From positions 24,707 through 67,571 of the forward strand of contig PATE01000060.1 of the NCBI GenBank assembly GCA_002712305.1: 42,865 nucleotides of DNA, in the 5' to 3' direction. This document shows, piece after piece, positions 20,289 to 39,613 of this stretch (the first letter of the stretch is position 1; each line of letters opens with the position of its first letter). The DNA comes from Gemmatimonadota bacterium (GTDB lineage: Bacteria > Latescibacterota > UBA2968 > UBA8231). The notes beneath the pieces were generated by a model. The model worked only from the letters and a program-made list of their open reading frames with translations, had not been told where the DNA came from and searched no databases. The translations under genes were made by a program, and so were the position numbers.

Positions 20289-20313
20289 TCAAGGTTTTTG
20301 TAGGACTCAGGGT

Positions 20314-21226: not shown

Positions 21227-21254
21227 AAACTAAGCCAGCCCGATACCTTGTCAA
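21227..21254 (-). promoter_or_regulatory. Promoter candidate upstream of atpB
   Basis: On the minus strand a perfect TTGACA (21254-21249) is followed after 16 bases by TAGTTT (21232-21227). It lies in the 123-base gap between atpI and atpB, the widest gap in the energy block apart from its start, so it could give the structural atp genes their own transcript. Confidence 0.4.
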
Positions 21255-21267
21255 CAGCACAGAAGCC

Positions 21268-21842: not shown

Positions 21843-21898
21843 GGTTTCGACTCGACCTTCGTTGTGTGGTCGATGCACAATCCTTGTAGGTAGGCCGC

Positions 21899-23260
21899 TC
21901 AGGGAACAATGTCGCACGCCGCCATCAGATCCACCAGAGCAGCGGGCCACAGGCCGCTCAGCACCAGCACACCCGCCGCGAGCACAAGCACGGCCGTGCG
22001 TTCGGGTCTGGCCGGCGGCGGTGGCTGAGGCGCACGGGGAGCAAACAACACGCGACCACTGGCCGCGACGAACACCCATGCTGTGAGGGCCACATTGACG
22101 GCGGCGATCACGAACACGCCCTCGTCGAACTCGGCCAGATTACTCAGCAGCCTCGTGCGAGCGGCGAAACCAAGCAAGGGCGGAACCCCCGCCAGCGAGA
22201 GCAGACAGACACACACGGCCGCTGCCAGCACAGGACGGCGTGCAGCCAGCCCGGCGGCGGTGATCTGCTCTGCTCGAAACTCCGTTGCTGCGGCCAGACC
22301 CACCAGGGCAAGGGCGGCAACCGTAAGATGCAGCAGATGCGCATCCGGGCCACCCGTGGCACCGATGGCCATCAGGGCGTAGCCGGTGTGAATGATCAGG
22401 GCGAACGCCAGCAGGCGCCGCAGATCGCGCTGCACGAGTCCGAGCAGGTTGCCCAGGGTTGCCCCCAGCAGCCCCACGATGATGAGCAATTTGGGAAGAG
22501 TGGTGAATCCGATCAGGGGATCGGCGATCAGACGGGCCATCACCGCCACGGCTGGCACGACACCGAGACCGAGAATCAGCGTGAGTTCCTGTCCCGGTCG
22601 GCGCGTCAGCGGCGCTAGCCAGCCATGAAAGGGGGCCACACCCGCCCGCAGACAGACGGCGATGGCCAACAGAATTCCGCCGGCCGTCGTGGTCGGACCC
22701 GGTTCCTGACGTCGCAGAGCATCGTAGCTGACGTCGCCTGATCCCAGGGCGAACAGGGCGATACCGATCAGCAGCAGAGCAGCACCCAGTGCATGTGCGG
22801 TCAACCAGCGGGACAGTGGAGGCAGGGGCATGTGTCCCTGGCGCACCGATCGAGCCAACAGAGCAAGGGCGGTGATCTCGAGGCCCGCATAGGTGAGCAA
22901 AAGGTGACGAGACGCGATACAGACAAGGCCACCACCGACTGCGATCAGCAGGAGGGTCGTCTCGGCACCGTCGTCGGCTTCCGGTCGCCGCCCAGCGTCG
23001 AGGGCGGCCATCAGAACGCCAATCGTCAGCAGCAGGACTCGCCACGTCTCGTAATAGGGATCGATCGCCAACCACGGCAACCCGCTGGCGGCACGAGTGC
23101 CCCACATGGCCAGGGCCGCCGTCAGGGGCAGCAGAAGACCGATGAATCCCGCGTGCGCAAAACCACGGCCTTGCCTTCGGGGCCACATCCAGGCATCCAG
23201 TGCAGCCAACACGAAGATCAGCAGCAGCAGCAGCACTTCGGGCAACAGAGGATGGCTCAC
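21899..23260 (-). CDS. NuoN-like, complex I antiporter-like subunit (divergent)
   Basis: 453 aa polytopic membrane protein of the Mrp-antiporter/complex I fold, with about 13 helices. Recognisable family parts are LLLTYAGLEITALALLARS (TM5, Glu128 kept), LRAGVAPFHGWLAPL at residues 204-218 (normally FKxxxxPFHxWxPD) and SLAGVPPLLGFAARTRLL (normally SxxGxPPxxGFxxKxxxx). In this alignment the proton-pathway lysine of TM7 is Arg205 and the TM12 lysine is not at its usual place. The start is GTG, overlapping the nuoM stop by 4 bases. In complex I this subunit would pump protons; whether it does here is doubtful. Confidence 0.8.
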   Translation of the reverse strand: MSHPLLPEVLLLLLIFVLAALDAWMWPRRQGRGFAHAGFIGLLLPLTAALAMWGTRAASGLPWLAIDPYYETWRVLLLTIGVLMAALDAGRRPEADDGAETTLLLIAVGGGLVCIASRHLLLTYAGLEITALALLARSVRQGHMPLPPLSRWLTAHALGAALLLIGIALFALGSGDVSYDALRRQEPGPTTTAGGILLAIAVCLRAGVAPFHGWLAPLTRRPGQELTLILGLGVVPAVAVMARLIADPLIGFTTLPKLLIIVGLLGATLGNLLGLVQRDLRRLLAFALIIHTGYALMAIGATGGPDAHLLHLTVAALALVGLAAATEFRAEQITAAGLAARRPVLAAAVCVCLLSLAGVPPLLGFAARTRLLSNLAEFDEGVFVIAAVNVALTAWVFVAASGRVLFAPRAPQPPPPARPERTAVLVLAAGVLVLSGLWPAALVDLMAACDIVP

Positions 23261-24792
23261 GGCGCGTCCTCCGGGTCGTCCACGGGCTGCTCATCCATGG
23301 GTTGGTGTGTTGCCTCTGTCGGCAGAGGAGCATCAGCAAGGATTCGCTTCACATCGGAAACGACCCAATCGGCCACAGGGGCGGGTTGCCACCCGGTGGC
23401 CAGCGCGACACCGACGGCGACGATCAGCCCGAGTCGCAGGGGCCAGGGCATCGTCGTTGTTTGCTCGCGATGGGCAATGCCTGAAACGGGGGCCAACAGC
23501 ACACCCACGAGAGCGACGCTGGCGAGCAGGCATGCCCACACGGGCCACGCTGTGGGGCCTACCGGCGACCCAACCACCGATCCGATCGCGTGAGACCCCC
23601 CGGTCAACAGGGGCAACAACCCTGCGAAACCGCCAAAGCCGGCAACGGCGGTCAGGGCCAGGACCGACACGCCCCACCACAGAGCCAGGCCTCGGCCACC
23701 GGTCTCGGCGGGTAGCCAACAAACCAGGCAAAGAGTCGACGCACGCGGCAGACCCAGGGCAGCGCACAACAGCAGGGCACCCGACGTGGCCGCCAGATCG
23801 ACCGAACCCAGTCCGACCGCCACAAGTCCTGCCAGGCCGACGCATGCCCAGCGAAGCCGATCGCCCAGATCCCGCTGAATGGCGGCGACAGCCACCGCGA
23901 TCAGGGCGGACAGACCACCCCAGATCCGAAGCAGAGCCGCCACATCGTCGAACAGGTCGACACTCAGCGGCAGACCAAGACGCAGCCATCCACTGACACC
24001 GAGGATCGTCCACAGCCCACCCGTCAGCAGGATGCCGCTGTAGGCGGCCCCCTCGCCGCAGCTATGGGTCTGCCAGCGGTGTAGCGGCACCAGAGGCAGA
24101 TGCAGGATGAGGAACAGCGTCAGCAACACGACGGCCCCACTGGGGATGACGTTGATCACGAGGGCATCCACCGACGCGGACAGTCCGTCGCTGGCCGAAC
24201 GGCACCAGATCGCGGCCATCCACAGACAACCGGAAGCCAGCAGTCCAGGCACGAGAAAGGAGAGGGCCGCCGGCCGCCGGGGCCGGGCATCGGCTCCCAT
24301 GTGAATCACCAACGCCAGCACCAGGGCCGTCGTGCCGTGACACGCCGCGGCCAGGACCAGATCGCGGGAAAGCAGGAAACCCGCCGCCGCAGCACTGACA
24401 CCGAAGATCCCCGTCTGTCGCAGACCGGCACGGCTCGGACCATCGACCAGATCCGTCAACAGTGCCAGCAGGCTGATCACCGACAACAAAAGCAGGGCGT
24501 AGAGATTCAGACCGTCCACGGCCAAGCGCGTCGGCGGCTCGACGGTGGACATCCAAGGGAGCGCTGTTTCCAGTTGCGCAATCGTGAGGGGCCCAGCAGC
24601 GGCCCTCTCGGAAGGAGGCGTATCGAAAACGGACACCACCCCCAACACGAGTACCACCTGGCCAAGAGCCAGCAGCACGCCCATCCATCTTCGTACCGTG
24701 GGCCAGGCCGACGTCAGCAACGTCAGCAGAGCTGCCACGGCGGGCAGCCCGATCACGGCGATCACCAGGGCAGGTGTATCCAGACCACTCAC
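23257..24792 (-). CDS. NuoM-like, complex I antiporter-like subunit (very divergent)
   Basis: 511 aa, about 14 helices. The fold is recognised from order and from LAVDGLNLYALLLLSVISLL (normally GxDGxSLxxxxLxxxL) and LHLPLVPLHRWQTHS (normally KxPxxPxHxWLPDAH). The TM5 glutamate position is His152 (AAACHGTTALVLAL) and the TM7 lysine position is His231. The WLPDAH segment is replaced by WQTHSCGEGAAYSG. Start GTG at 24792, giving a GTGA overlap with the nuoL stop; the open frame upstream is antisense of nuoL. The C-terminus is hydrophilic and acidic (MDEQPVDDPEDAP). Confidence 0.7.
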   Translation of the reverse strand: MSGLDTPALVIAVIGLPAVAALLTLLTSAWPTVRRWMGVLLALGQVVLVLGVVSVFDTPPSERAAAGPLTIAQLETALPWMSTVEPPTRLAVDGLNLYALLLLSVISLLALLTDLVDGPSRAGLRQTGIFGVSAAAAGFLLSRDLVLAAACHGTTALVLALVIHMGADARPRRPAALSFLVPGLLASGCLWMAAIWCRSASDGLSASVDALVINVIPSGAVVLLTLFLILHLPLVPLHRWQTHSCGEGAAYSGILLTGGLWTILGVSGWLRLGLPLSVDLFDDVAALLRIWGGLSALIAVAVAAIQRDLGDRLRWACVGLAGLVAVGLGSVDLAATSGALLLCAALGLPRASTLCLVCWLPAETGGRGLALWWGVSVLALTAVAGFGGFAGLLPLLTGGSHAIGSVVGSPVGPTAWPVWACLLASVALVGVLLAPVSGIAHREQTTTMPWPLRLGLIVAVGVALATGWQPAPVADWVVSDVKRILADAPLPTEATHQPMDEQPVDDPEDAP

Positions 24793-26504
24793 AGTCGCCC
24801 TCCGAGGATCGCCGCCACCATAGCTACCGTCGTGAGCACCGCCCACCAAAGGGGACGACTCTCGACCCAGGTCACACCCCAGCCGACCCCTCGACACACC
24901 AGCACCAGGACCCCCGGCACCAGTGATACGATGTCCACCAACCACGCCAGCTGGCGCAGACCGCCTGTGACGCCCCTGAACCGTCGGTTTGAAAGAGCCA
25001 GACCGTCGCCGACGAACTGTCGCAGTGGAGAGGCAGACAGCTCCGGATCGACATCAGGCCGCCGTCGTCCCACCCAACCGGTCACCAGCAGCAGCACCAG
25101 ACCGAGGGCGGCCACTGTCCCCAAAGCCGGTGTGGAGGGCAGGTGTTGCGTGAGAAGCAAGGTCAGTGGCCAGAGCCCGCCGATGACGGCGCTGAAGATC
25201 ACCGTGGCCACCACGGGCGACGGAACGGCCGTCTGCTCCTGAGGAGCCAGGACGCTGTGTCGCGGCGATCCGAGAAAGGGCCAGAGCCCCAGGCGCAGGG
25301 CGGGAACGACAACAAGCGCAGGCAACAGGGCGAGCATAGCGAACTCAGGTGTCGCCGGTGGTTGCGTAGCCAATAGGTGCCCATGGAGGATGAACAGTCC
25401 CCATGGCGGCAGTCCGGCCACACCCACAGCGGCGAGCACACTCATCCAACAGGCGACGGGAAGCGACGCCGCCAGCCCTCCCCACCGATTTGCGTCGGCC
25501 GTGTCGCCAAGGGCCGCGTCCACCACATCCACCGCCCACGCGGCGGCGGGCCGAACCAACGCCAGACACACCCAGACCCCGGCGGCGATGACGGCGGGGG
25601 TACTCAGCGTGAGGGCCACGGCAAAAGCCAACTGGCTGGACCACGCCCACAGTTGAGCCCGCCGCAGATCTGTGCTGGCCAAACTCAAGATGGCGGCGGC
25701 AAGGGCGGGCAGGATGAACCCGAAACCCACCGTTGAAGATCCTGTCCAGTCTCCCATCTCGACGACGCGCAACACGAGCCCACCGGCAGCCAGAAGCAGC
25801 AGCCCGCTGATGTGGGCTCGCACAGCGGCAGGCAGCGACACGATCGGCAGCAGAGAACGGTGGAAGGGGAACCCTCCCGACAGCGCCAGGGCAGCCAGAA
25901 GCACCAGACCCGCAACCCAGGTGACCGAATCAGTACCAGTGACCTCGCCAAACAGGCGCACCTGCCAGCCACCGGCGATCAGGGCAGCCAGCAGCAGCGC
26001 ACCGGCGGCGATCCGGTGGGCCACGAGCAGTCCCAGAATGCTCGCCCGTCTCTGCAGGACCAACAACAGGACACTCAGCAGCAACCATTCGAGCGCGGCC
26101 AGTCGAAGGAGCAGATGGTTGCCGACTACCACCACGTGAGCGGCGGTGCTGGCCCCAAAGAGCATTCCTGCATCGAGGCGTGTCGTGGCCGGCGGCAGAG
26201 CCACACGTGTGACCAGCGTCAACAGAGCGATGGCTCCAATCAGCAGCGCCGACTCGGGGCCGATGTAAACATTGGCCAGGATCGCCGAGCCTCGTCCCGG
26301 AATCGTCAGCCACCCGAACCCACTCGAAGACAACGTTCCGGAGGTGGCAACATATCCGGCGGCGGAGCCGACGAGGGCAGCCCCCAGCAGGATCGACTGG
26401 ATCACCCGACGAGGTCCGTCGGCGGATACGGGGACGAGGGCGGCCAGCAAGGTTGTAGCGCAGACACCGATCGGCAGCAGCGGCCCCATCTGCGTCAGCG
26501 TCAC
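24789..26504 (-). CDS. NuoL-like, complex I antiporter-like subunit (divergent)
   Basis: 571 aa, about 15 helices, shorter than the usual 610-700. LRLAALEWLLLSVLLLVLQR (TM5) keeps Glu139. The TM7 segment LALSGGFPFHRSLLP (residues 206-220) stands where KSAQxPxHxWLPDAM is expected; the lysine is Leu208. The segment GLPPWGLFILHGHLL stands where GFFSKDxIL is expected. A long C-terminal tail ends in two helices (LVPGVLVLVCRGVGWGVTW, WWAVLTTVAMVAAILGG), consistent with the NuoL lateral-helix region in shortened form. Start GTG with a 4-base overlap with nuoK. Confidence 0.72.
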   Translation of the reverse strand: MTLTQMGPLLPIGVCATTLLAALVPVSADGPRRVIQSILLGAALVGSAAGYVATSGTLSSSGFGWLTIPGRGSAILANVYIGPESALLIGAIALLTLVTRVALPPATTRLDAGMLFGASTAAHVVVVGNHLLLRLAALEWLLLSVLLLVLQRRASILGLLVAHRIAAGALLLAALIAGGWQVRLFGEVTGTDSVTWVAGLVLLAALALSGGFPFHRSLLPIVSLPAAVRAHISGLLLLAAGGLVLRVVEMGDWTGSSTVGFGFILPALAAAILSLASTDLRRAQLWAWSSQLAFAVALTLSTPAVIAAGVWVCLALVRPAAAWAVDVVDAALGDTADANRWGGLAASLPVACWMSVLAAVGVAGLPPWGLFILHGHLLATQPPATPEFAMLALLPALVVVPALRLGLWPFLGSPRHSVLAPQEQTAVPSPVVATVIFSAVIGGLWPLTLLLTQHLPSTPALGTVAALGLVLLLVTGWVGRRRPDVDPELSASPLRQFVGDGLALSNRRFRGVTGGLRQLAWLVDIVSLVPGVLVLVCRGVGWGVTWVESRPLWWAVLTTVAMVAAILGGRL

Positions 26505-26773
26505 GGGGGTGGCTCCACGGGTTGTTCAGCTGACGTCACGTCCTGTGCCAATCGCAGGGCGACGAGACTGATCAGCAGGCCGAACACCAGCGCCAGAACC
26601 CCAAGATCCCCCTGCCCCGCCGCGGCCAGGGCGCGCACGGCACCCAGTGTCAGCAACTGCGTGCCGATCAGCAGACTCAGTCGATGGCGCGACGCGAGGA
26701 GGGTGACGAGTCCTGCACCGAGCAGGACTGCCACACCCACAATGGGCTCGGCAGCGAGCAACGGCGTGCTCAT
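26501..26773 (-). CDS. NuoK-like membrane subunit lacking both conserved glutamates
   Basis: 90 aa with three helices, the topology and size of NuoK (about 100 aa). The phrase ASRHRLSLLIGTQLLTLGAV (residues 27-46) corresponds to the NuoK segment RRNLxxxLxxIELMLNAxN; the conserved Glu36 is Gln39. In the third helix ALVFGLLISLVALRLA takes the place of AAAEAAIGLA, so the second Glu is absent. The ATG at 26773 overlaps the nuoJ stop by 4 bases (ATGA). Confidence 0.7.
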   Translation of the reverse strand: MSTPLLAAEPIVGVAVLLGAGLVTLLASRHRLSLLIGTQLLTLGAVRALAAAGQGDLGVLALVFGLLISLVALRLAQDVTSAEQPVEPPP

Positions 26774-27210
26774 TGGCGTCGCCCCTCGCGGATGCGCACA
26801 GCGAGTGTCGTGCCGATCAGCAGTGTCACGGCACTGATCAGAACCAGCAGGCCCGTCGTCGGCCATCGATCCTGCCCGGGCGGCTCGGCGGTCTCGAAGG
26901 TCGGTGCCATACCTACGATGAACAGGAGTGCCACGACGAGACCCAGAATCAGCGCCGGCAATGGGACACGCACCTCGATCTCAGCGTCGTGTCGGCGTAG
27001 ATGCGAGTACGCCACGGGACCGATCACCGCCAGATACAGCACCAGCGTCGCTGCCAGAATCGGATCGTCCACCGCAAGCCGAGCCGCCAGCAATACCCCG
27101 ACTCTGAGCGCGGCGAAGAGACTCCGATGGGCGAGGACCTCACTCATGGCCTTGAGAGCGGCCAGAACGATCCCCAGGGTGAGCACCAGACTCAGCACAG
27201 TGGCCGTCAT
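26770..27210 (-). CDS. NuoJ-like membrane subunit
   Basis: 146 aa with about five helices. The helix TLVLYLAVIGPVAYSHLR would match the NuoJ TM3 segment VYVGAVMVLFLFVVMM that bears the pi-bulge; the flexible Gly pattern is reduced. Position between nuoH and nuoK and 4-base overlaps on both sides are the main evidence, because the sequence is divergent. The ATG at 27210 is chosen for its overlap with the nuoH stop. Confidence 0.6.
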   Translation of the reverse strand: MTATVLSLVLTLGIVLAALKAMSEVLAHRSLFAALRVGVLLAARLAVDDPILAATLVLYLAVIGPVAYSHLRRHDAEIEVRVPLPALILGLVVALLFIVGMAPTFETAEPPGQDRWPTTGLLVLISAVTLLIGTTLAVRIREGRRQ

Positions 27211-28133
27211 CCGGGCCACCTTCCGGTCATCTGCAGAACGGACATGCCCATTTCGAAGACGGCCAGCGGCAGCAGGCCACCCCACGCGAAGTGGCGCAGC
27301 CGCCGCGGCGTGGGATCCCCAAAGAGACCGATGCAGACCCACCGCGAGAAGAAGACCCCTCCCAGCAGGGCCAGCAGCAAGACAAACAGCGCCACTTCGA
27401 TCGGTCGTACCGGTAGCTGTGGCAGGATTCCCGACACGATGATGGCCATCAGTACCAGTGCCGTCACGACGAGGTGAGACGCCATGCGTGCCAGCAGGTC
27501 CGCCGATGCCCCCGTTGTGGCGACACTGCCACGGTGCCGGGACACCGCATCAAGGCGACGGCAGAGCCCGGCACTGAGCAGCAGCCCCATGGCGGCCACG
27601 GGATGAACGCCCTGCGGCGCAAGCCCAACACCGAACAGCAGTATGAGAAGCGCCACCCACAGGCCAAGCCACGGCGTAAGACTCGCCATGAGGTGACGAC
27701 GTGCACTCGGGTCGGTGCCCGGTGGTTCGGCCCACATGGACGGCAGACTCCAGCGATGGGCGAGGGTTGCCGCCAGCAGCAGCCCGAACCACCACAGAAT
27801 CTGTTCGGGAGATCGCGCGATGGCGCCGCCGAAACGGCTGCCCACAACTGCGTGCAGCAGAATCGTCACCAGCATCAGCGCCGGCAGCAGACTTAGCGAG
27901 GCGATCAGCGTCGGCCACAGGCGTGGTACCGGCGCCCGCGCCAGATCGGCCACGATCCGCGCCACCGATCCGAGCAGGCCATGCCGAGGACGCCGACGTC
28001 CTTCCATGCGGGCTCGCGTGCGGCGATCCATCCAAGCCGTCAGCGCTGCGAGGATCAGAGCCCCCAGCGTCAGGGTCGTGCCGCGGAGCCAGCCCTCGGC
28101 CAGGATCGTCGGTCCCTGTGGCCATTCGGTCAT
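27207..28133 (-). CDS. NuoH-like membrane subunit without the acidic quinone loop
   Basis: 308 aa, about eight helices. RRPRHGLLGSVARIVADLA (residues 47-65) resembles the NuoH segment RVGPxGLLQPxADxxKL, and the C-terminal TPRRLRHFAWGGLLPLAVFE resembles PRxRxDQLMxxxWKxLLPxxL. The signature RxPFDLPExExELVxGxxxEY loop, which lines the quinone channel in real complex I, is not present between these landmarks. The ATG at 28133 overlaps nuoG's stop by 4 bases. Identification is by the two landmarks plus order. Confidence 0.68.
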   Translation of the reverse strand: MTEWPQGPTILAEGWLRGTTLTLGALILAALTAWMDRRTRARMEGRRRPRHGLLGSVARIVADLARAPVPRLWPTLIASLSLLPALMLVTILLHAVVGSRFGGAIARSPEQILWWFGLLLAATLAHRWSLPSMWAEPPGTDPSARRHLMASLTPWLGLWVALLILLFGVGLAPQGVHPVAAMGLLLSAGLCRRLDAVSRHRGSVATTGASADLLARMASHLVVTALVLMAIIVSGILPQLPVRPIEVALFVLLLALLGGVFFSRWVCIGLFGDPTPRRLRHFAWGGLLPLAVFEMGMSVLQMTGRWPG

Positions 28134-29743
28134 CGCGCAGGATCCTCGATCACCAGCAGTCCCTGCCGCTGAAGTGTGTCGACCCAGGCGCCACCGGCAG
28201 CGACACCCTGGGGATGGGTTCGCTGATTCGCGTCCAGTTGTGCGTGGCTGGACCCCTCGAGCCATTCGTGGCGGCTGGCCAATTCACGAAAGATCTCGGC
28301 TGCTGACGTCGGTTCACGGCCCGCCAGTTGAAGAAACAACTCCAGGTCCGTCTGCCCTGCCATCGGCGCACGAGCGGGACGCACCCGCCGCAGCTGCTGC
28401 CGATCGTTGACGAAGGTGCCGTCCTTCTCCAGCCAGTGACTGGCCGGCAGAACCAGATCGGCCTTTTCGTACGACACCAGATTGTGGGTGGCGAGGAAGG
28501 AGACGCCCGACCTGTCCAGACGGGGGCGCACCCCGGCAGGTCCTCCTCCGCACATCAACAGCTGCCCCACCTGATCTTCCCCGATGGCCGTCTGCAGATC
28601 CTTGGTCGTTCCCACGCTGGTCTCCCCAGCCTCCCGCAGACGCCCAACCCCGGTCGTATTCGGAGCCCGTGAGCCACTGATGCGAAATCCACCGGGAAAG
28701 CTCATCTCGCCCCGATCCTCCACCGACCACAGAAACAGTCGTGCACCCCATGTGGTGGCCGCATCGATCAGGACACTGGCCTCCTCCAGGGTCAGGAAAG
28801 GACTGAGCCAGACGGCGGATCGCGGCTGTGCCATGCGCCGGCGCAGACGGTCCACGGCGACGTGCCACGCGGTTTCCTCATCGGGTGTGGCCGGTTCGGG
28901 CAGCCGAAGTCGGCCCTCCAGTTCCTGGTCGAAACCGAAACGCCCTTCGTCACACATCCACCAGTCGTTGACGTCACTGTCGAGTCGAGGCCGCAGGCGG
29001 GTCACCTGACCGGCGCTATCCACATCGGCGCGCACGGCACAACCCGTCGCGCATGACCCGCAGGTGGTATCCACACTGCGAAGCGTCCATGCAGGGGCGG
29101 CAACGGTCGATGCGGGATCGACGAGGGCACCGGCGGGACACAGATCGACGAGATTGCCGGAGAGGGGATGATCCACACCTGCAGGACCGGTGGTGATCTC
29201 GATCTGGGGGCCTCGTCCCTTGATGCCAACCTGTCCTGCGCCAGACACCTCCTGCTCGAAACGGGCGCAGCGACTACACTGAATGCAGCGCCCAGCCTCG
29301 AAATGCAGTCGCGCTCCGAGAGCGACTCGCTCGGATGAACCGGCCAGTTCATGAGCCTGCGCCTGCGGACCATGCCCCCCAATCGCTTCCTGAAGTTCAC
29401 ATTCCCCGGACGCCGGACAAATGGGGCACTCCATGGCGTGACGCTGCACCATCTCCGCCAGCGCTCGCGATCTCAACGAGCGACTCTCGCTGTCCTCGGT
29501 ACGGATGATCATGCCCTCGGCGACCGTGTGATTGCACGCGGTGACCATACGGGAACCTCCCTGTCCTTCCACCTGGACCACGCAACTTCGGCAGGTTGCA
29601 GGACAACTCAGCCCGGGGTGGTGACACAAGGCTGGCACGACGACGCCGTGTGTGTGCAGGGCTTCGAGTACACTCTGCCCCCGTGTGGCCTCCACGGCCC
29701 GGTCATCGATTTCGATGTGGCAGCGAGCAGTCATGGGCGGCAT
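28130..29743 (-). CDS. NuoG-like Fe-S subunit with all visible cluster ligands kept
   Basis: 537 aa, shorter than typical NuoG (700-900). The domains in order are as follows. A ferredoxin-like 2Fe-2S domain has Cys40, Cys51, Cys54 and Cys70 (spacing C-x10-C-x2-C). The His-Cys3 cluster motif is HAMECPICPASGECELQE (His102, Cys106, Cys109, Cys115). A 4Fe-4S site is GRCIQCSRCARF (Cys153, 156, 159) plus Cys202 in DLCPAGAL. A fourth site is CGSCATGC plus Cys264 (228, 231, 235, 264), the Fe4S4 motif of the molybdopterin-oxidoreductase fold. The rest is a shortened molybdopterin-type domain ending with LPASHWLEKDGTFVNDRQQL, which is typical NuoG. It overlaps nuoF by 1 base (TGATG). Confidence 0.88.
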   Translation of the reverse strand: MPPMTARCHIEIDDRAVEATRGQSVLEALHTHGVVVPALCHHPGLSCPATCRSCVVQVEGQGGSRMVTACNHTVAEGMIIRTEDSESRSLRSRALAEMVQRHAMECPICPASGECELQEAIGGHGPQAQAHELAGSSERVALGARLHFEAGRCIQCSRCARFEQEVSGAGQVGIKGRGPQIEITTGPAGVDHPLSGNLVDLCPAGALVDPASTVAAPAWTLRSVDTTCGSCATGCAVRADVDSAGQVTRLRPRLDSDVNDWWMCDEGRFGFDQELEGRLRLPEPATPDEETAWHVAVDRLRRRMAQPRSAVWLSPFLTLEEASVLIDAATTWGARLFLWSVEDRGEMSFPGGFRISGSRAPNTTGVGRLREAGETSVGTTKDLQTAIGEDQVGQLLMCGGGPAGVRPRLDRSGVSFLATHNLVSYEKADLVLPASHWLEKDGTFVNDRQQLRRVRPARAPMAGQTDLELFLQLAGREPTSAAEIFRELASRHEWLEGSSHAQLDANQRTHPQGVAAGGAWVDTLQRQGLLVIEDPAR

Positions 29744-31086
29744 CAGAAGCGCAGGTGGATGCTGTCCGCCGTACGCAACGGCGCGTCATCGTCGATGGGG
29801 GTCGCCCCCGCACTTGCCTGAGAATCGACATGCTCCGGTGCGATCTGCAGCAACCCCTGCGTCACGTGAGCAGCCACGGTCGGATGGCCACAGATGGCCA
29901 ACCCCTCGCCCTCCCCGTGGGCTAAGATCTCAAGTCTCTCCTGCAGAGCGGAAGGGTCGATGGCGGTGACGCCCCCTTCGCGTAGCCGCTGCAAGTGCTG
30001 GATCAACCAGACCGATCCCTCCCGGCACACGGGACACTGACCACAGCCCAGCTGCGCGGCGTGGTCGAGCCAACGGGCCGCCAGATCGAGCGGCGTGACG
30101 GCGTCGTCAGCCACCACGATCGTGCCGCAGCCGAAGGATCCCTCGTGTTCGCCACCCCCCGGTTGAGACCAGACACCGGGATCGATCTGTAGTGACTTGA
30201 GCGCGTCGCCATCGAGGGCAGGTGCGCCGCCCGGAAAGACGGCTAGCAGGTCGGTCTCGTCCACGACCCCGCCTGCGAGGGTATCGATCAATTCCCCGAA
30301 CGAACCACTGCCGATCTCGACTTCGAACAGACCCGGCCGTCGAATGTGGCCACTCACACTGATCGCCACCGTGCCTGGAAAGTCCGCAGATCCCAGCTCA
30401 CGGAACGCCCCCGAACCGCGAGCCAGAATCGCGGGCAGAAAAGCGAGGGTTGCAGCCGTGTGGACGAGCACGGGGGCGCCGAACAGGGTCGGCAGATCGT
30501 TTGTGCCATTCGAGGCACGGGGTTCGGGACGTGAACACTCGATCAGATGGGGCAAAAGTTGGTCGGTGCCTCGCGCCGGCAGCGGCCCGGGCACCGGATG
30601 CAGATGAAGACGCACGGCATGTCCCGAACGTCCGAGGGCTCGGTCGATCCAACCGGCGGCCCTCGCCTCATCCATGGCGTGCCCCAGAACACTGCGGGCG
30701 CGTCGCCAATCGGCGCGAACACACAGGTAGACATCATCCGCAGTCAGCGCGTGGGCGGCGATCAGTGCCCCCTCGATCAGACGATGGGGCAGACGTTCAG
30801 CCAGTTTACGATCACGGAAACGGCCCGACTCGCTCTCGCTGACATCCACCAGCAAAGCGCGCACACCTCCCAGTGCGCCCGCGGCACGCCAGCGTGCCGC
30901 CACCGGTCGCCACGCCCCACCATGTCCACGCAGACCCGCTGCCTCGACCTCGTCGATGACGGCTGCGGGATCGATCTCGTCGAAGGCACGCCACGCACCA
31001 TCGTAGCCACCATTGCGGCGATAGACATCCAGCGCGTCCGCGTCGGGACGCTCCACCCCTTCCAGCAGCCAGCGACGTTCCTGCAT
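29743..31086 (-). CDS. NuoF-like subunit, N3 cluster kept but FMN/NADH site degraded
   Basis: 447 aa, aligned over its full length with NuoF. The [4Fe-4S] N3 site is intact: CGQCPVCREG (Cys348, 351, 354) and Cys399 in AICGHP. The flavin/NADH site is not. GRGGAGF is GHGGAWR (residues 54-60), the CNADExEPGxxKDR segment is VDVSESESGRFRDR (80-93), the CGEETALLxSLEG segment is PARGTDQLLPHLIE (170-183), and the following NN motif is HTAAT. In real complex I these residues hold FMN and NADH. The SLBB domain (about 240-310, AISVSGHIRRPGLFEVEIGS) is kept. It starts with ATG directly after the nuoE stop (TAGATG). Confidence 0.82.
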   Translation of the reverse strand: MQERRWLLEGVERPDADALDVYRRNGGYDGAWRAFDEIDPAAVIDEVEAAGLRGHGGAWRPVAARWRAAGALGGVRALLVDVSESESGRFRDRKLAERLPHRLIEGALIAAHALTADDVYLCVRADWRRARSVLGHAMDEARAAGWIDRALGRSGHAVRLHLHPVPGPLPARGTDQLLPHLIECSRPEPRASNGTNDLPTLFGAPVLVHTAATLAFLPAILARGSGAFRELGSADFPGTVAISVSGHIRRPGLFEVEIGSGSFGELIDTLAGGVVDETDLLAVFPGGAPALDGDALKSLQIDPGVWSQPGGGEHEGSFGCGTIVVADDAVTPLDLAARWLDHAAQLGCGQCPVCREGSVWLIQHLQRLREGGVTAIDPSALQERLEILAHGEGEGLAICGHPTVAAHVTQGLLQIAPEHVDSQASAGATPIDDDAPLRTADSIHLRF

Positions 31087-31557
31087 CTATGACGCCCTCT
31101 CCGGCTGCTCAAGTCGCTGCGCCAGCGCCTGCAGAGACGCCTCCTGCAGTCCGCCATACAACGTCCCACGGACCTGTACAATCGGCGCCGAGGAACAGGC
31201 GTTCTGACAGGGAGAGGTGCACACCCGATCCGACCCGAGCCGATCCCGCAACAGACGTTGCACATACCCCGCCCCCATGAGACGACAGGATAGACCGTCG
31301 CAGACGGTGATCGAGTCCGGATCGTTCATCAGCTCCGGGAAAGCGGACAGGGCACTGGTGACCATGGCCGTACTCGTGATGCAGGTCTGCGCGATCCAGG
31401 TGACGACATCGTCGTCAATACCGACTCCCTCATCGCGCAGCAGAACCGCCAGCGGCAGAATCGCACCACGCGACTCGGCATAGGCCTGCAACAGCGACTG
31501 CAGTCGCGCCTCCCCCACCGTCGCCCGCAGACGCTCGGCAATGGCCAGTTGTGTCAT
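31087..31557 (-). CDS. NuoE-like 2Fe-2S thioredoxin-fold subunit
   Basis: 156 aa, normal length for NuoE. An N-terminal helical bundle (LPLAVLLRDEGVGIDDDVV) is followed by the thioredoxin-like 2Fe-2S domain with VCDGLSCRLMGA (Cys86, Cys91) and CQNACSSAPIVQV (Cys117, Cys121), matching the N1a pattern C-x4-C and C-x3-C followed by AP. An extra Cys113 sits just before. The ATG at 31557 is chosen from family length; upstream codons are not protein-like. 64 bases separate it from the nuoD-like gene. Confidence 0.88.
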   Translation of the reverse strand: MTQLAIAERLRATVGEARLQSLLQAYAESRGAILPLAVLLRDEGVGIDDDVVTWIAQTCITSTAMVTSALSAFPELMNDPDSITVCDGLSCRLMGAGYVQRLLRDRLGSDRVCTSPCQNACSSAPIVQVRGTLYGGLQEASLQALAQRLEQPERAS

Positions 31558-31621: not shown

Positions 31622-33055
31622 TCATTGGTCCATCTCGGCAGCATTCACATGGACACTGGACACAACATCGGCCGCATCGGCGAAGCATTGTCCCTGGAGC
31701 AAAGCCGGCAACAGGTGAAAGTGAGCACTCGAGGGTGACCGCCAGTGGGCCCGCTTCGGCTTGCTCGAACCATCGCTGCTCAACAGAATGCCCAACTCCC
31801 CCTCCGGTGCTTCCACAGCGACAAAGGCGGTGGCACCGGATGCCGGTTGCAGACCGTGGCCCTCCATCCACAACTCGAAGTGGTGAATCATCTGTGTCGT
31901 CGCCGCAGGCATGGGCGGTGGTACGACCCGAACGTCTTCCACTTGCACAGGTCCGTGCCAGGCGGCCAGCGCCTGCCGAGCCAGCCGCAGACTCTGGGCC
32001 ATCTCATCCAGCCGCACGATGCATCGATCCACCACGTCCCCTCCCGCACCGACGGAGACATCAAAGTCGAGTTGGTTATAGGTCAGATAGGGTGCTCGCC
32101 GGCGCACGTCCAGATCGACGCCGGTGCCTCGTGCCACGGGCCCACTCAGGCCATGAGTGTCTACCGCATCGGTGCTGATGACACCGACTCCCTCGAGCCG
32201 ACGACGCCAGCCGCGGCGGCCGGACAACGATTGCCTCGCCGTGTCGATCAGACGGGACAGATGGGGCGTCACTTCTGAAAGTGCCGCTTCGGCAGGACCG
32301 CGATCGATCAGAATCTGACCCGGAAGATGGATGCCTGTGGGCCGACGACGCCCACACACGGCGACAAACAGCCATGCCAGACGCTCACGACCGTGTCGCG
32401 CTTCATTCACCAGCGCGTCATCGGCACAAGCTGTGGCTTGGGAGACGAGCCAGCCGCAGTGGGCCTGAACCCGCTCCAGCTCCGCCACAAATACGCGAGC
32501 ATGCTGAATCGAGTCCGGCACGTCGATCCCAGCCAGCGCTTCGATTCCGAGCACCGTCAGCATTGCCGTCGTCGTCGGCGTCTGCTCATTGAGCCCCTCG
32601 GCCAGAACCGGTAGCTGCAGATAAGGGTGGGCGGGGGCCAGTCTGGAGAGTCCCGCCGTGAGTCGACCGGACGTGGCGTGCACATCGACGATGCGATCGC
32701 CATCGACGGCTGCCCACAGACTCAGTCGGCGGCGTGTAATCGGGCCGCCGTCGCCAATCGGCAGGAATCCCACAGGCGCGGGCATTGGTTCCGACCCTGG
32801 GTTTGGCGGTTCAGGCCAGGACGCGACGGATAGCTCGAGTGCGGGGAGAGGCGAGCCCTCGACCCAGATCGTCTCGTAGTGACGATCGACGTGCAGCACG
32901 ACAACGGCCGTCGCTTCGGCCCCGTGAACCGGATTGTGGCCGGGGATCAGATCGACGACACGGGCCCCCGACCTGCGTTGTTCGGCCAGCAGCGCAGGAA
33001 GGTCCGTAGCCGAGACTCTCTGGGGCTGGGTCACCTCACGCGGCAGAGCGGTCAT
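31622..33055 (-). CDS. NuoD-like subunit, possibly with a NuoC-like N-terminal remnant
   Basis: 477 aa. The C-terminal half is clearly the 49-kDa subunit: VDTHGLSGPVARGTGVDLDV, then APYLTYNQLDFDVSVGAGGD, VVDRCIVRLDEMAQSLRLAR, and the end segment FVAVEAPEGELGILLSSDGS. At residues 100-160, where GPxHPxxHG and the quinone-site His and Tyr are expected, it reads IGDGGPITRRRLSLW and LAEGLNEQTP, so those residues are lost. Residues 1-85 (LLAEQRRSGARVVDL, AVVVLHVDRHYETIW) may be a shrunken NuoC/30-kDa domain, as in fused NuoCD and hydrogenase large subunits. The ATG at 33055 overlaps the preceding membrane gene by 4 bases (ATGA). Confidence 0.8.
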   Translation of the reverse strand: MTALPREVTQPQRVSATDLPALLAEQRRSGARVVDLIPGHNPVHGAEATAVVVLHVDRHYETIWVEGSPLPALELSVASWPEPPNPGSEPMPAPVGFLPIGDGGPITRRRLSLWAAVDGDRIVDVHATSGRLTAGLSRLAPAHPYLQLPVLAEGLNEQTPTTTAMLTVLGIEALAGIDVPDSIQHARVFVAELERVQAHCGWLVSQATACADDALVNEARHGRERLAWLFVAVCGRRRPTGIHLPGQILIDRGPAEAALSEVTPHLSRLIDTARQSLSGRRGWRRRLEGVGVISTDAVDTHGLSGPVARGTGVDLDVRRRAPYLTYNQLDFDVSVGAGGDVVDRCIVRLDEMAQSLRLARQALAAWHGPVQVEDVRVVPPPMPAATTQMIHHFELWMEGHGLQPASGATAFVAVEAPEGELGILLSSDGSSKPKRAHWRSPSSAHFHLLPALLQGQCFADAADVVSSVHVNAAEMDQ

Positions 33056-33399
33056 CGTTCCCCGCGGGTGTCGGCGTCCAGGGCACGACGACGAAGGCCG
33101 TGGGCGAGACTGATGAGGAAGGCACACACGAGCGCGATGCCGGCCAGCCGATGTACGGCTGACGTCATCTCTCCGCTGAGCCAGAGGAAGCCGAGAGGGG
33201 CCGTGACACCGATGAGCACGGCCGTCAGACGGATCGCCGACAACGACTCACCAGAGGGGTCGTAAACGCGCACGGGGACGTTGGATTCGGAAGGGTTCGA
33301 CGGTGTGTCGCGGGCGCAAAGGCGGGCGAAGCCGACGACGAGCAGGCAGATGCTGCCCCAGATGGCGACGATGCTGATGAAGAAGGAGGAAACGTCCAC
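33052..33399 (-). CDS. Three-helix membrane protein in the nuoA position
   Basis: 115 aa with helices at about residues 6-27 (FISIVAIWGSICLLVVGFA), 57-76 (RLTAVLIGVTAPLGFLWL) and 82-101. A polar loop of about 30 residues lies between helices 1 and 2. Helix-loop-helix-helix topology, size and first place in the series fit NuoA (subunit 3), but the NuoA signature (ECG in the loop, FDxE in helix 2) is absent. It could equally be an unrelated small membrane protein. Its overlap with the nuoD start suggests a working partner of that gene. Confidence 0.5.
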   Translation of the reverse strand: MDVSSFFISIVAIWGSICLLVVGFARLCARDTPSNPSESNVPVRVYDPSGESLSAIRLTAVLIGVTAPLGFLWLSGEMTSAVHRLAGIALVCAFLISLAHGLRRRALDADTRGER

Positions 33400-33423: not shown

Positions 33424-33690
33424 CTACACGGCGGTAGACTCGCGAGCCGGATCGGCTGGCGAACTCGTCTCCATCAACTCGGGCACTTCGAAGGTGCGAT
33501 CGGAATCCTCGCCACACGACTCTCCCGGCTTGGCGCCGCACTCGCACATGGGCTCGCCGAAGCGGTCCTGCATGTTGGCCAGCCCACCACAGGAACCGGC
33601 AATGCGTCGATTGCTGACGATGACACCGATCGCCATCCCCGCCATGACGAGGGCGAATACGACCAGCGCCGCGGGAAAGAGTGTCGCCAT
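33424..33690 (-). CDS. nqrM: NQR maturation protein NqrM
   Basis: 88 aa, one N-terminal transmembrane helix ([20 protein letters not shown]) followed by the family motif GSCGGLAN and a Cys-rich tail ([14 protein letters not shown]). NqrM helps insert the iron centre held by Cys residues of NqrD and NqrE. The tail carries two more cysteines than the shortest family members. The start ATG overlaps the nqrF stop (TGATG); 24 bases separate its end from the NuoA-like gene, so transcription probably runs on into the complex I-like block. Confidence 0.88.
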
Positions 33691-34925
33691 CAGGAACCGA
33701 AATCGTCGAAGCGGATCATCTCTTCTTCGACGCCGAGATCATCGAGCATCTTCAATACCGCCGACAGCATCATCGGTGGGCCGCACAGATAGTATTCGAT
33801 GTCTTCCGGCGCCGGATGTTTGCTCAGATACTCTTCAAGCACGACCTGGTGGATGAATCCGGTAGAACCCGTCCACCCATCACCGGGAAGAGGATCGGAC
33901 ATGGCAGCATGGAAGGAGAAATTCGGAAATTTCTCCTCGATGTCGCGGAAATGATCTTCGTAGAACATCTCGATGCCGGAACGGGCACCATACCAGTAGG
34001 AGACCTTACGCTGCGTGCCCTCTGTATGGAACAGGTGGAACAGGTGTGAGCGCAGGGGCGCCATGCCGGCGCCGCCACCGATGTAGCACATCTCGCGCTC
34101 GGTTTCCTGGATGTAGAACTCACCGTAGGGACCGGAGATCGTCACCATGTCACCAGGCTTGCGACTGAACACGTAGGACGAAGCGAAACCGGGTGGCACG
34201 TTCATCCACCCGCCCTTCTCCCGATCGGGCGGTGGCGTGGCGATGCGGATGTTCAGCATCACAATATCACCCTCGGCCGGGTGGTTGCCCATCGAGTAGG
34301 CGCGGACCACGGTGTCCGTGTTCTTCGTGCTCAGATCCCAGACGTTGAAGCGGTCCCAGTCACCGTGGAAGCGCTCGTCAATATCGAAGTCCTTGAAGTT
34401 GCACTCGAAGGGCGGCACCTCGATCTGAATGAACCCACCGGACTCGAAGTCGAGCGTCTCGCCTTCGGGCAGCTTGACGACAAATTCCTTGATGAAGGTG
34501 GCCACGTTGTCATTGGAAACGACTTCGCACTCCATCTTCTTCACCGAGAACACCTCAGGCGGCACTTCGATGTTCATATCCTGCTTGACCGCGACCTGGC
34601 AGGACAGACGCTCGCCCTCTTTCTCTTCCTTGCGGCTGATGTGCTCTTGCTCGGTAGGCAGAATATCACCGCCGCCCTCGTGAATCTTGACCCGGCACTG
34701 GGCACAGGTGCCGCCACCGCCGCAGGCTGAGGACACGAAAATGCCCTGGTCGGCCAGGACATTCAGCAGCTTGCCACCCGCCTCGCTTGTGATCGTGCGC
34801 TCGCCATTGATGTTGATGCTCACGTCACCGGAGGCGACGAGTCGGGAGCGGGCTGCGAGGATCACGGCGACCAGAACCAGAACAACCCCGGTGAACATCC
34901 CCACGCCGCCAATGACTTCAGTCAT
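33690..34925 (-). CDS. nqrF: Na+-NQR subunit F (NADH dehydrogenase, 2Fe-2S and FAD)
   Basis: 411 aa electron-entry subunit. An N-terminal transmembrane helix (about residues 7-25) is followed by a 2Fe-2S ferredoxin domain with Cys68, Cys74, Cys77 and Cys109 ([27 protein letters not shown]), the FAD motif [10 protein letters not shown], and the NADH-binding [16 protein letters not shown] with a C-terminal [10 protein letters not shown]. All expected parts are present, so NADH oxidation by NQR looks intact. Confidence 0.97.
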
Positions 34926-34941
34926 GGAATCTTGATCTCGT

Positions 34942-35550
34942 TTAGAGCTGGATGCCGGAGAAGGCCATGAATGCCATGGCCATGAGACCGACGGTCATGA
35001 AGGTGATCCCCAGGCCACGCAGGCCATGAGGCACATCGCTGTAACGCATCTTCTCGCGAATTCCGGCCAGGGCGACGATGGCCAGAGCCCAACCGAGACC
35101 CGAGCCGAGTGCGAAGACCACACTCTCACCGAAACCATAGTCACGCTCGACCATGAACAGTGAACCACCGAGGATGGCACAGTTCACGGTGATCAGCGGC
35201 AGGAAGATACCCAACGCGTTGTAGAGCGAAGGCACGTATTTGTCGAGAAACATCTCCAGAATCTGCACACTGGCGGCGATAACCCCAATGTAGCTGATCA
35301 GGCCGACGAAGGTGAGGTCCACTCCGCCCAGACCGATCGATGCCAGCGCTTCTTCCCGAAGCAGGTGACGATACACCAGATTGTTCAGCGGTACCGTGAT
35401 TCCCGTTACAACGATAACGGCGATTCCCAGGCCAAATGCTGTAGGAATGCGCTTCGACACGGCCAGGAAGGTGCACATGCCGAGAAAGAAGGCCAGGGCG
35501 ATGTTCTCGACGAAGACCGCTTTGACGAAGAGACTGAGGTAGGCTTCCAT
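34942..35550 (-). CDS. nqrE: Na+-NQR subunit E
   Basis: 202 aa, six helices, inner membrane. The conserved cysteines that hold the intramembrane iron centre with NqrD are Cys26 ([15 protein letters not shown]) and Cys124 ([11 protein letters not shown]). It follows nqrD by 2 bases. Confidence 0.97.
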
Positions 35551-35552
35551 GG

Positions 35553-36176
35553 CTAGTTGTCCATCTCGATCTGATCGGTCTTGAAGGACCGCAGGACCCA
35601 GATGAAACCCCCGATGATGAAGAAGGCACTCGGTGGCAGCAGCATCAGGCCATTGGGCTCATACCAGCCCCCCACATTGGCCAGTTGGAAGACTTCGATA
35701 CCGAACAGTTTCCCCGCACCAAACAGCTCACGAAGGACGGCGACCACGAGCAGTATAATGCTGTATCCGAGCCCGTTACCGATGCCGTCGATCAGACTCG
35801 ATCGGACCCCCTCCTTCATGGCGAAGGCCTCGGCGCGCCCCATAACGATGCAGTTTGTGATGATCAGGCCCACGAAAACCGACAACTGTTTGCTGATGTT
35901 GAAGGCGTACGCGCGCAGTCCCTGATCGACGACAATCACCAGAGAGGCAATGATCGTCATCTGCACGATGATGCGGATGTTGGTGGGAATGTGCTGGCGG
36001 ATGAGACTGACGGCACCGTTCGAGAAGGTGATGACGAAGATGACCGCCAGAGACATGACGACAGCTGTCTCCATCTTGCTCGTCACCGCCAAGGCCGAGC
36101 AGATCCCGAGGATCTGAAGGGCGATCGGATTGTCGTCGAAGATCGGTCTCAGTAGTGTGTCGCGGGCCTTACCCAT
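35553..36176 (-). CDS. nqrD: Na+-NQR subunit D
   Basis: 207 aa, six helices, inverted-topology partner of NqrE. Cys26 ([16 protein letters not shown]) and Cys109 ([15 protein letters not shown]) are present. It follows nqrC by 3 bases. Confidence 0.97.
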
Positions 36177-36179
36177 GGC

Positions 36180-36959
36180 TCAGCCTATTCCTCCTTCAGA
36201 GCGCAGATGCTTCAGATAGGGGCCATACCCTTCTTCGCTCAGCCAGTAATGCAGCATATCATGCACGCCCCGTGCCGTGATCGTGGCACCGGACAGACCA
36301 TCTACCTGCGAGTGGGCCGACGGCGACGATGGATCGACAGCGCCGCGCATGACCTGGATCGCGATGTTGCCCTCCGCGTCGAAGGCCTGCTTGCCGTTCC
36401 ATTGCGCCTTCCACGCCGGGTTGTCGACCTCGCCGCCCAGACCCGGCGTTTCACCGTGCTGGTAGTAGACGAGCGAACGGATCGTCGACAGATCGTCGCG
36501 ATCGATGGCCAGGAAGCCATACAGCGTCGACCACAACCCCTTGCCATACAGGGGCAGCACGATCTTGTCGACAGCGCCACGCTTGCGCACCAGATACACC
36601 GGGATATACCGCGAGCGCCGCTTGATCCCCGCCCGGTCTAGGCCTGGGTCGATCGCCGTTCCGAGTTCGTTGTCCTTGGCGGCCGAGACAAAATCGAAAG
36701 TGCTCGGATCGATATCGTCGGCGTATTGGCCGGATTGCAGGTCGACGACGCGAGCCTCGATCTGCTCAAAGAGCGCGTCGATTTCAGCCCCGTCTTCGTA
36801 CAGACCGGCGGCACTGAGGATATTCTTCTTCTTGTCCGCCAGCTTGTTGGCCGCCTGTGTGGGCTTGAGCACCACCGCAGCGGCGGAGACAAGCACAGAG
36901 CACACGACGCACAGGGCGAAGGCGACGAAGAAGGTCTTGCTCATCGTGTCTTTGGCCAT
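36180..36959 (-). CDS. nqrC: Na+-NQR subunit C, covalent FMN carrier
   Basis: 259 aa. One N-terminal transmembrane helix (TFFVAFALCVVCSVLVSAAA) leads to a periplasmic FMN-binding domain. The flavinylation motif is DGLSGATIT with Thr226, where ApbE attaches FMN by a phosphoester bond. GLWSTLYGFLAI and GETPGLGGEV are family motifs. Confidence 0.97.
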   Translation of the reverse strand: MAKDTMSKTFFVAFALCVVCSVLVSAAAVVLKPTQAANKLADKKKNILSAAGLYEDGAEIDALFEQIEARVVDLQSGQYADDIDPSTFDFVSAAKDNELGTAIDPGLDRAGIKRRSRYIPVYLVRKRGAVDKIVLPLYGKGLWSTLYGFLAIDRDDLSTIRSLVYYQHGETPGLGGEVDNPAWKAQWNGKQAFDAEGNIAIQVMRGAVDPSSPSAHSQVDGLSGATITARGVHDMLHYWLSEEGYGPYLKHLRSEGGIG

Positions 36960-36996
36960 CAGAGATTCCTACGCGCCCTAACTCGCGCCAACATGC

Positions 36997-38208
36997 CTAA
37001 ACAGCCGTTCGCAACGCGCGGCGTCGCACGTTGGCTTGAACGACGAGATAGTCGAAAACGGGAGCAAAGGTGTTGCCGAAGAGGATGGCGAGCATCACAC
37101 CTTCGGGAAAGGCCGGGTTAACGACGCGAATCAGGATCGTCATGACACCGATCAACCCGCCGAAGAGCCATTTGCCCAGATTGGTAAAGGACGCCGACAC
37201 AGGATCGGTCGCCATGAAGACACAGCCGAAGGCGTAGCCACCCAGCAGCAAGTGCCACACCGGATCCATGGCGAACATGCTGTTGGTGGTGCTGTCCACC
37301 ATATGTAGCAGCGCGCCCAGGACCACGGTGGCGATGGTCATGCTCAGCATGATCCGCCAGGAGCCGATCCCGGAACCGATGAGGATCACGGCCCCGATGA
37401 GACAGGCCAGCACGGAGGTTTCACCCATCGAGCCGGGAATCGTGCCCAGGAAGGCCTGCATCTTGGTCATCGAACCGGTCAGAGCTTCCATGCCATCCGC
37501 CGGCACCTGACCCAGCGGTGTCGCCTTCGAGTAGCCGTCGACGGCGATCCACACTTTGTCGCCGCTGATCTGGGCGGGATAGGCGAAATACAGAAAGGCC
37601 CGGGCTGTCAGCGCCGGGTTGAGGAAGTTCTTCCCTGTGCCGCCGAAAATCTCTTTGCCGATGACGACACCAAAGCTGATGCCAATCGCTACCTGCCACA
37701 GCGGAATCGTCGGTGGCAGTGTGAGGGGAAAGAGGATTCCCGTCACGAGGAATCCTTCATTCACCTCATGGCCGCGAATCATGGCGAACAGGGCTTCCCA
37801 GAAACCACCGACCATGTTGCACACGAGGAAAACAGGCACGAAGAACAGAGCTCCGTGTACCAGATTCGCCAGCAGACTGGTCGGATCGTAGCCGATGCCG
37901 AAGATGTCGATGATGACGCCGCGCCAGCCGTCAGCCGACTCCATCCCCAGGTGAGCCATGGCCAGATTCGCCTGGTAGCCCGTGTTCCACATGGCCATGA
38001 AGATGCAGGGAGTCAGCCCCACGGCGACGGTGATCATCAGGCGCTTCAGATCGATACCGTCTCTTACGTGGGAGGCGTTCTTGGTGACGTCCGCGGGCGT
38101 GTAGAGAAAGGTGTCGATCAGCTCGTAGATCGGATACAGCGGCTTGAGTTTGCCGTCGTGTGTAAAGTGCGGCTCAGCCGCATCGAGCAGTTGTCGCAGA
38201 ACCTTCAT
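36997..38208 (-). CDS. nqrB: Na+-NQR subunit B, covalent FMN and riboflavin-binding membrane subunit
   Basis: 403 aa, about ten helices, Na+-translocating part of NQR. Family motifs are [35 protein letters not shown] and [13 protein letters not shown]. The flavinylation site reads [10 protein letters not shown] with Thr230; the usual motif is S/T-G-A-T, so Lys replaces Gly. Everything else matches a normal NqrB. Confidence 0.96.
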
Positions 38209-38251
38209 TTCGTCGGTTATTCCCCCCCCTCAGTGACCGGTGCACGCATGC

Positions 38252-39613
38252 CTAGAACTCCTTCTCGATGATTTCGAGATTGCTGCGCAGCAGAGGACCG
38301 TAGTCGGTCTTGCCCGGACAGACGAAGGTGCACAGGCTCAGATCTTCCTCATCCAACTCGAGACAACCAAGCTCCAATGCCACCTCGGCGTCACCGGTCA
38401 CCAACGACTTCATCAGCGATACAGGGATGATGTCCAGGGGCATAACCGCCTCGTAGGACCCGACGGGCACGATGGCTCGGGGTGATCCGTTCGTACTGGT
38501 GGTAAAGGCAAAACGTTTTCCGGGGGTCAGCTTGGACAGGAAGATGTTCTTGATCGAAAACTTGTCGAGACCCGGCGACTGCCAACCCAGAAACTCGCGC
38601 TCGCGGCCTTCGGACAGGACACTCACCTGCAGGTGCCAGCGCCCCAGATAGTTCAGTTCGTCGGCTGCGGTTCGACCAGAGAGCACCGAACCGGAGATCA
38701 CCCTCAGGTCATCGCCATCGGTCTCGTCGACCAGCAACTGGCTCAGGTTCGCACCGATGCGGGTGCGCAACAGGCGCGGATTCTTCACCGGAGGCCCTCC
38801 GAGCGCCACGACCCGCGTTGGATCGATCTTGCCCGTGAGGAAAAGCCCACCGATAGCGAGCACATCCTGATAGTTGATGAAGAAGACCGACTTCTGCTGA
38901 CCCACCGGATCGATGAAGTGAATGTGTGTCCCGGGAAGTCCCGCTGGATGAGGGCCGGCGAAATCAGCGACACTCGTGTCCGCCCGGCCAGCGCCATCCG
39001 GGATCGTCGCCCCCGGCTCAGTGCACAGATGCACCTCGCCATCCGTCAGTTTCGCCAGCGCCGCAAGGCCTGTATTAAACGCGTCTTCCTGACCGGCGAG
39101 CACGACGGCAGGATCGGCGGCCAGCGGATTCGTATCAATGGCGGTGACGAAAATCGAATGCGCCACCTGGTCGGGCAGGGGCACTTTGCTGTAGGGCCTG
39201 GTTCGCAACCCCGTCCACAGTCCAGATTCGGCCAACGCCTTGCGCACTGTGTCCGCATCGAGATCTTCTGGGCGTTTGCCGCCCACCTCGAAGGCCTCTG
39301 ACTCTTCGCTGCTGGCGACGTCGATCACGACGGACAACAATCGGCGTTTGGACCCACGGTGGATGGCGACGACCTTTCCACCTGCGGGGGAGGTAAAACG
39401 AATGCCCGATCGCCGCTTGTCCTCGAAAAGCAGTTGACCGATGCAGACATCGTCACCCTCTTCGACGGCCATGGTCGGACGAAGGTCGTGATAATCGGTT
39501 CCGACGACAGCGACCTGCGTCACGGGACGAGCGTCCTCGATGACTTGCTGGCATTCGCCGGTGATTGGTAAATCGAGGCCCTGCTTGATGCGGAAGGACC
39601 GCCGCTGACCCAT
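38252..39613 (-). CDS. nqrA: Na+-NQR subunit A
   Basis: 453 aa cytosolic subunit implicated in ubiquinone binding. It begins with the [15 protein letters not shown] region typical of NqrA, followed by [20 protein letters not shown] and the mid-protein [20 protein letters not shown]. It is the first gene of the operon; the ATG at 39613 has GAGG 9 bases upstream. Confidence 0.96.

Follow-up and report, generated by a model that had tools for sequence, protein, structure and literature searches.

The gene at positions 31622 to 33055 of the window (the whole stretch of 42,865 nucleotides that was analysed, from a Latescibacterota genome) encodes a homologue of NuoD, the 49-kDa subunit of respiratory complex I (NDH-1), in which the quinone-binding residues have been replaced. 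The protein would be the 49-kDa subunit of a complete, catalytically stripped complex I, built from NuoA, NuoE to NuoH and NuoJ to NuoN counterparts of the same operon together with NuoB and NuoI counterparts whose genes lie at two separate sites elsewhere in the genome (the derived subunits are written here with a prefix, as dNuoD). Such an assembly would presumably still form with nine Fe-S clusters, would neither reduce quinone at the NuoD/NuoB site nor pump protons, and might serve as a membrane-anchored Fe-S electron relay between a donor other than NADH and an acceptor other than quinone, perhaps in functional association with the Na+-NQR of the same operon; donor, acceptor and association are guesses. 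The probability of a stripped complex I acting as an electron relay with NQR is put at roughly 40%. This reading draws on the loss of the quinone motif throughout the family, the intact fold, the sparing of Fe-S ligands relative to other conserved sites, the eroded dNuoF pocket and membrane charges (NuoA, H, K, L, M and N), the conserved places of the unlinked dNuoB and dNuoI, low dN/dS values, and the start/stop overlaps running from dnuoA to atpI.

The derived NuoD and its quinone site

31622..33055, minus strand: dNuoD, NuoCD-type 49-kDa homologue (from Pfam, alignments of relatives and predicted structure); residues 1 to about 90, eroded NuoC; residues about 95 to 477, NuoD fold without the quinone-site residues

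The reading frame is intact, with 477 codons between an ATG at 33055 and a stop at 31622. Pfam family PF00346 matches residues 221-476 (E 1.6e-57), and NCBIfam NuoD models match from residue 100 or 105 to residue 476, under their equivalog cut-offs. The AlphaFold model (mean pLDDT 79.8, with low confidence for residues 1 to about 90) matches 49-kDa structures with Z scores of 47.5-49 over 374-380 aligned residues, Thermus Nqo4 (4hea_4) among them at 47.5 over 374 residues; homology and fold thus extend over the whole NuoD domain. A first-pass annotation, which had assigned the C-terminal half to the 49-kDa subunit and named structure prediction as a check, is borne out by the Pfam match and by a normal predicted 49-kDa fold. 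Weaker PDB matches were 6cfw and 7z0s, of the group 4 [NiFe] hydrogenase/formate hydrogenlyase type, whose large subunits are homologous to NuoD, as dNuoD is. A hydrogenase large subunit was ruled out because the [NiFe] type needs two CxxC metal-binding motifs and dNuoD has none; unlike the group 4 enzymes, it is also accompanied by NuoE, NuoF and NuoG homologues.

In the alignment with E. coli, the stretch G217-P-N-H220-P-S-A-H224-G corresponds to G101-D-G-G104-P-I-T-R108-R of dNuoD, and Y273-L274 to E157-Q158. The quinone residues H220, H224 and Y273 are accordingly represented by G104, R108 and E157, so that the GPxHPxxHG loop and the Tyr/His pair are indeed replaced, as had been annotated. 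Residue-by-residue alignment revealed the same absence of two His and one Tyr in all eight dNuoD proteins of the family (H220 replaced by G, A or a gap; H224 by R, P, Q or G; Y273 by E, D or R), whereas all three residues are present in every canonical NuoD compared in this manner. The motif is also present in more distant NuoD proteins, in every case where the alignment extends over it. The loss is therefore a clade-wide state and not a sequencing error, and dNuoD lacks the His/His/Tyr set of the NuoD quinone site.

Other His and Tyr residues might in principle have been placed into a normal quinone cavity, but the predicted fold is normal and, judging from the family alignment, no new His/Tyr pair is conserved between residues 90 and 260. 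The only His or Tyr columns common to most members in that interval are Y145, H199 and H243, of which Y145 and H199 also occur in canonical NuoD and H243 is found in 5 of 7 members. Among the new invariant residues of the family are Q158, next to the position of the former Tyr, and H437, in another part of the protein.

The unusual N-terminal domain is an eroded NuoC, a reading supported by a series of sequences among the relatives. The dnuoD genes of two genomes, G013 and G019, carry a nearly complete NuoC with the WPAADWFEREVYDL and PLRKDYPLTG stretches; the NuoC part is partial in genus g5 and reduced to its shortest remnant in the genus of the window. The earlier suggestion of a reduced NuoC in the first 85 residues is thus upheld.

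The operon and the unlinked NuoB and NuoI counterparts

33690..39613, minus strand: nqrA-F, complete Na+-NQR (nqrF 33690-34925 to nqrA 38252-39613)
33424..33690, minus strand: nqrM-like gene for a Cys-rich protein of 88 aa (so named for its resemblance; nothing matched in NCBIfam)
33052..33399, minus strand: dNuoA, 115-aa membrane protein at the nuoA position (by position and erosion series in relatives)
31087..31557, minus strand: dNuoE, NuoE homologue (PF01257), 156 aa from ATG, four Cys of N1a kept
29743..31086, minus strand: dNuoF, NuoF homologue, 447 aa, four Cys of N3 kept, FMN/NADH pocket replaced
28130..29743, minus strand: dNuoG, short NuoG homologue, 537 aa, all N1b, N5, N4 and N7 ligands kept
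27207..28133, minus strand: dNuoH, 308 aa without Lys, a very divergent NuoH that has lost conserved acidic residues
26770..27210, minus strand: dNuoJ, 146 aa, at the NuoJ position (synteny with relatives)
26501..26773, minus strand: dNuoK, 90 aa, NuoK homologue lacking both membrane Glu
24789..26504, minus strand: dNuoL, antiporter-like subunit at the NuoL position, 571 aa, no Lys
23257..24792, minus strand: dNuoM, NuoM homologue, E144/K234/K265/E407 replaced
21899..23260, minus strand: dNuoN, NuoN homologue, K158R/K217R/K395R, K247 lost
14527..21902, minus strand: F-type ATP synthase genes (atpI-like, atpB ... atpA, atpG, atpD, atpC), directly downstream of dnuoN

The operon thus begins with nqrA-F and the nqrM-like gene, continues through dnuoA and dnuoD-N and leads into atpI/atpB and the rest of the ATP synthase genes; from dnuoA to atpI, most neighbouring genes overlap by their start and stop codons. 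All six nqr genes scored above an NCBIfam cut-off; atpB was identified by NCBIfam and the other atp genes were read from their translations. dNuoH fell under the Pfam cut-off and was assigned by synteny and by the NuoH of G019, and among the membrane subunits measured dNuoN shows the highest conservation. On the plus strand (39800-41743), facing away from the nqr operon, lies a 647-aa open reading frame resembling a TonB-dependent receptor.

The derived set corresponds subunit for subunit to the canonical complex I of E. coli (NuoA-N) and Thermus (Nqo1-14) and to the class-typical nuo clusters of other Latescibacterota, with which it shares the gene order E-F-G-H-J-K-L-M-N, the 49-kDa fold and the Fe-S ligands. 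It differs in the absence of the quinone His/Tyr, of an intact FMN/NADH pocket and of most proton-path residues, in its eroded NuoC and NuoA, in the unlinked NuoB and NuoI, in the upstream nqr genes and in its lysine-poor composition. Most other class members have an ordinary nuo cluster, with no nqr gene in the surrounding stretches examined; in one of them (G025), atp genes directly follow the nuo cluster, as they do downstream of the derived cluster.

None of nuoA, nuoB and nuoI was recognised by family models in the locus. For dNuoA, a Pfam search gave nothing useful and the match to the NuoA profile was weak (hhalign probability 53), so that its assignment rests mainly on position and relatives; it is best read as an eroded NuoA and is the least certain of the subunits. 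The annotated lack of NuoB holds for the locus but not for the genome, where a divergent NuoB is encoded elsewhere. The gene for dNuoB, a protein of 138 aa that retains the four N2 cysteines, is flanked on contig C1 by an mrp/ApbC-like gene and prmA; that for dNuoI, of 128 aa and with its eight cysteines complete, is on contig C102, flanked by rny and dxr. These flanking genes were named from their sequences. In NCBIfam the two proteins match NuoB and NuoI best, respectively, with scores under the cut-off. True absence of NuoB and NuoI from the genome was thereby ruled out. With its four Cys retained (three in G013), dNuoB would supply the partner bearing the N2 ligands, and derived counterparts of all complex I subunits appear to be encoded in the genome.

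Both genes occupy the same genomic places in the relatives examined. The canonical NuoI of other class members also adjoins rny, displaced from the nuo cluster (L127, L128 and L129), which identifies dNuoI by position as the ortholog of the class NuoI. dNuoB co-occurs with dNuoD, and sister genomes of the same genus that lack dNuoD have a truncated dNuoB or none; dNuoI likewise co-occurs with dNuoD and is mostly absent from such sisters, G007, which keeps it, being the exception. In the fragmented assembly of G019, dNuoD is present and neither partner was seen. At L113, 1348-2576, dnuoB directly follows the mrp/ApbC-like gene, whose family includes the complex I Fe-S assembly factor Ind1.

Site retention, selection and distribution

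Each subunit of the eight genomes with dNuoD was aligned with E. coli and canonical class clusters; the residue readings for dNuoH, dNuoJ and dNuoL rest on low-identity alignments. Fe-S ligands were kept in 225 of 228 cells, and two of the three misses lie at a contig end in G019, the third being a shifted cysteine in the NuoB of G013. Ligands for all clusters of NDH-1 are thus retained, compared with 2008 of 4399 cells (46%) at other canonically conserved columns. The FMN/NADH pocket of NuoF is not preserved: in the window R62 is replaced by H, K72 by R, N90 by D and D92 by S, and GEE and NN are lost, while in G013 only the GEE motif of the pocket survives. Along the Lys/Glu proton path of NuoA, H, K, L, M and N most charged residues are gone, the residual ones including E133 of dNuoN and, in genera g1 and g5, E144 of dNuoL. 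The latter two genera have lost E144 and E407 of NuoM and K158 and K217 of NuoN, all four of which are kept in G013 and G019, where E144 of NuoL is lost instead. Since proton-path replacements partly differ between g7 and g1/g5, the pattern fits a loss of pumping in the common ancestor followed by separate decay, with independent losses as the alternative. The first-pass picture of a 49-kDa homologue without quinone motifs and with a reduced NuoC therefore stands, but the oddity is not confined to NuoD and extends to dNuoF and the membrane subunits.

In the close G005-G009 pair, which is not saturated, dN/dS was 0.11 for dNuoD (dS 0.26), 0.16 for dNuoB (dS 0.35), 0.14 for nqrC and 0.44 for dNuoA. 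Pairs involving the window gave low ratios for dNuoD, dNuoG, dNuoN, dNuoB and dNuoI, with dS mostly saturated, and the ratios of most window-G001 pairs are rough for this reason; the dNuoM value of that comparison is left out because of a wrong reading frame. On these grounds, at least dNuoD and dNuoB are under purifying selection, and dNuoA is weakly constrained. Lysine makes up 0.34% of the derived subunits of the window, against 3.67% of nqrA-F and 2.22% of a second, 11-subunit complex I of the same genome; the lysine-poor set includes the unlinked dNuoB and dNuoI. GC content at codon positions 1 and 2 is higher in the derived genes and GC3 is similar. Such a pattern, lysine loss included, is what prolonged drift toward GC-rich codons would be expected to produce where constraint is weak; selection for a low lysine content is less likely.

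dNuoD was found in eight of the 64 genomes of the phylum searched, all in one family, and spans three genera with reading frames intact. All relatives are known from draft genomes, most if not all of them MAGs, under mixed labels (Latescibacterota, Gemmatimonadetes/Gemmatimonadaceae, bacterium), and their placement in one Latescibacterota family is a judgement. A pattern scan of genome contigs, biased toward dNuoD-like sequence, gave matches of the derived type only in the dNuoD clade. In the tree the dNuoD sequences form one clade, with long branches and composition bias affecting the root. Most species of genus g7 lack the cluster. In G018, G024 and G021 it is deleted and nqr is kept, with nqrF followed closely by atpI; in G007 (L207, L210 and L211), pieces of dNuoA, dNuoM and dNuoN lie between nqrF and atpI, and dNuoB is truncated with dNuoI remaining. 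The cluster is thus dispensable, being deleted in sisters that keep nqr and fragmentary in G007.

Possible roles and related complexes

The usual view of complex I is that of a single coupled machine. With its NADH, quinone and proton sites eroded, the derived complex would be expected to do something else or almost nothing. That the complex has abandoned NADH oxidation, quinone reduction and proton pumping alike, with the complete Fe-S wire kept by selection for electron transfer between new partners, probably in connection with Na+-NQR, is a tentative proposal that we would lean against rather than for. Against a relay stand the dispensability of the cluster in sister genomes, the weakly constrained dNuoA and the composition drift, which suggests weak constraint on most residues. 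The drift, the eroded active sites and, in sister species, a whole-cluster deletion clean enough to leave nqr and atp adjacent would suit a redox-idle scaffold, maintained for its structure (for example, to hold NQR or further membrane proteins) or because losing part of it does harm. We consider this unlikely, as ligands are retained near-perfectly for each of the nine clusters, N7 and N1a off the main path among them, which exceeds any obvious need of a pure scaffold. The Fe-S cysteines may nevertheless owe their conservation to folding alone, and relay and scaffold are not told apart by these data.

Slow decay of a vestigial complex I without remaining function, after Na+-NQR took over NADH oxidation, would account for the erosion series (G019/G013, g5, g1), the remnants in G007, the losses in G018, G024 and G021 and the weakly constrained dNuoA. 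It is improbable in view of reading frames that stay intact in three genera, purifying selection on dNuoD and dNuoB, and Fe-S ligands spared far more than other sites. An enzyme that is still an NADH:quinone oxidoreductase, with substrate sites rebuilt from other residues, would agree with the intact fold and Fe-S chain, with new invariant residues such as Q158 and H437, and with the GEE motif in dNuoF of G013. However, no His/Tyr pair is conserved around the old site, the NADH/FMN, quinone and proton residues are eroded together, and their replacements partly differ between genera, which makes this the least probable of the four readings.

In three genera, complex I seems to have lost its input, output and pump in the course of evolution while its Fe-S chain was spared, which separates the needs that the clusters and fold serve from those of catalysis. 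The erosion series, from G019 and G013 through g5 to g1, with the partial deletion in G007, is a natural mutagenesis record of complex I. Searches of titles and abstracts in the open-access literature turned up no description of such a complex.

The Na+-NQR shares the operon with the derived cluster but is a different enzyme, and its six proteins match their own families well. The second complex I of the genome belongs to the same superfamily as the derived complex:

L033 8115-17798 (G000, contig C58): 11-subunit complex I (nuoA-D and nuoH-N, without nuoE, nuoF and nuoG)

Unlike the derived set, it has an intact quinone motif, nearly all membrane charges and an ordinary composition. Its NuoA carries E/D at positions 79/81, where others have D/E.
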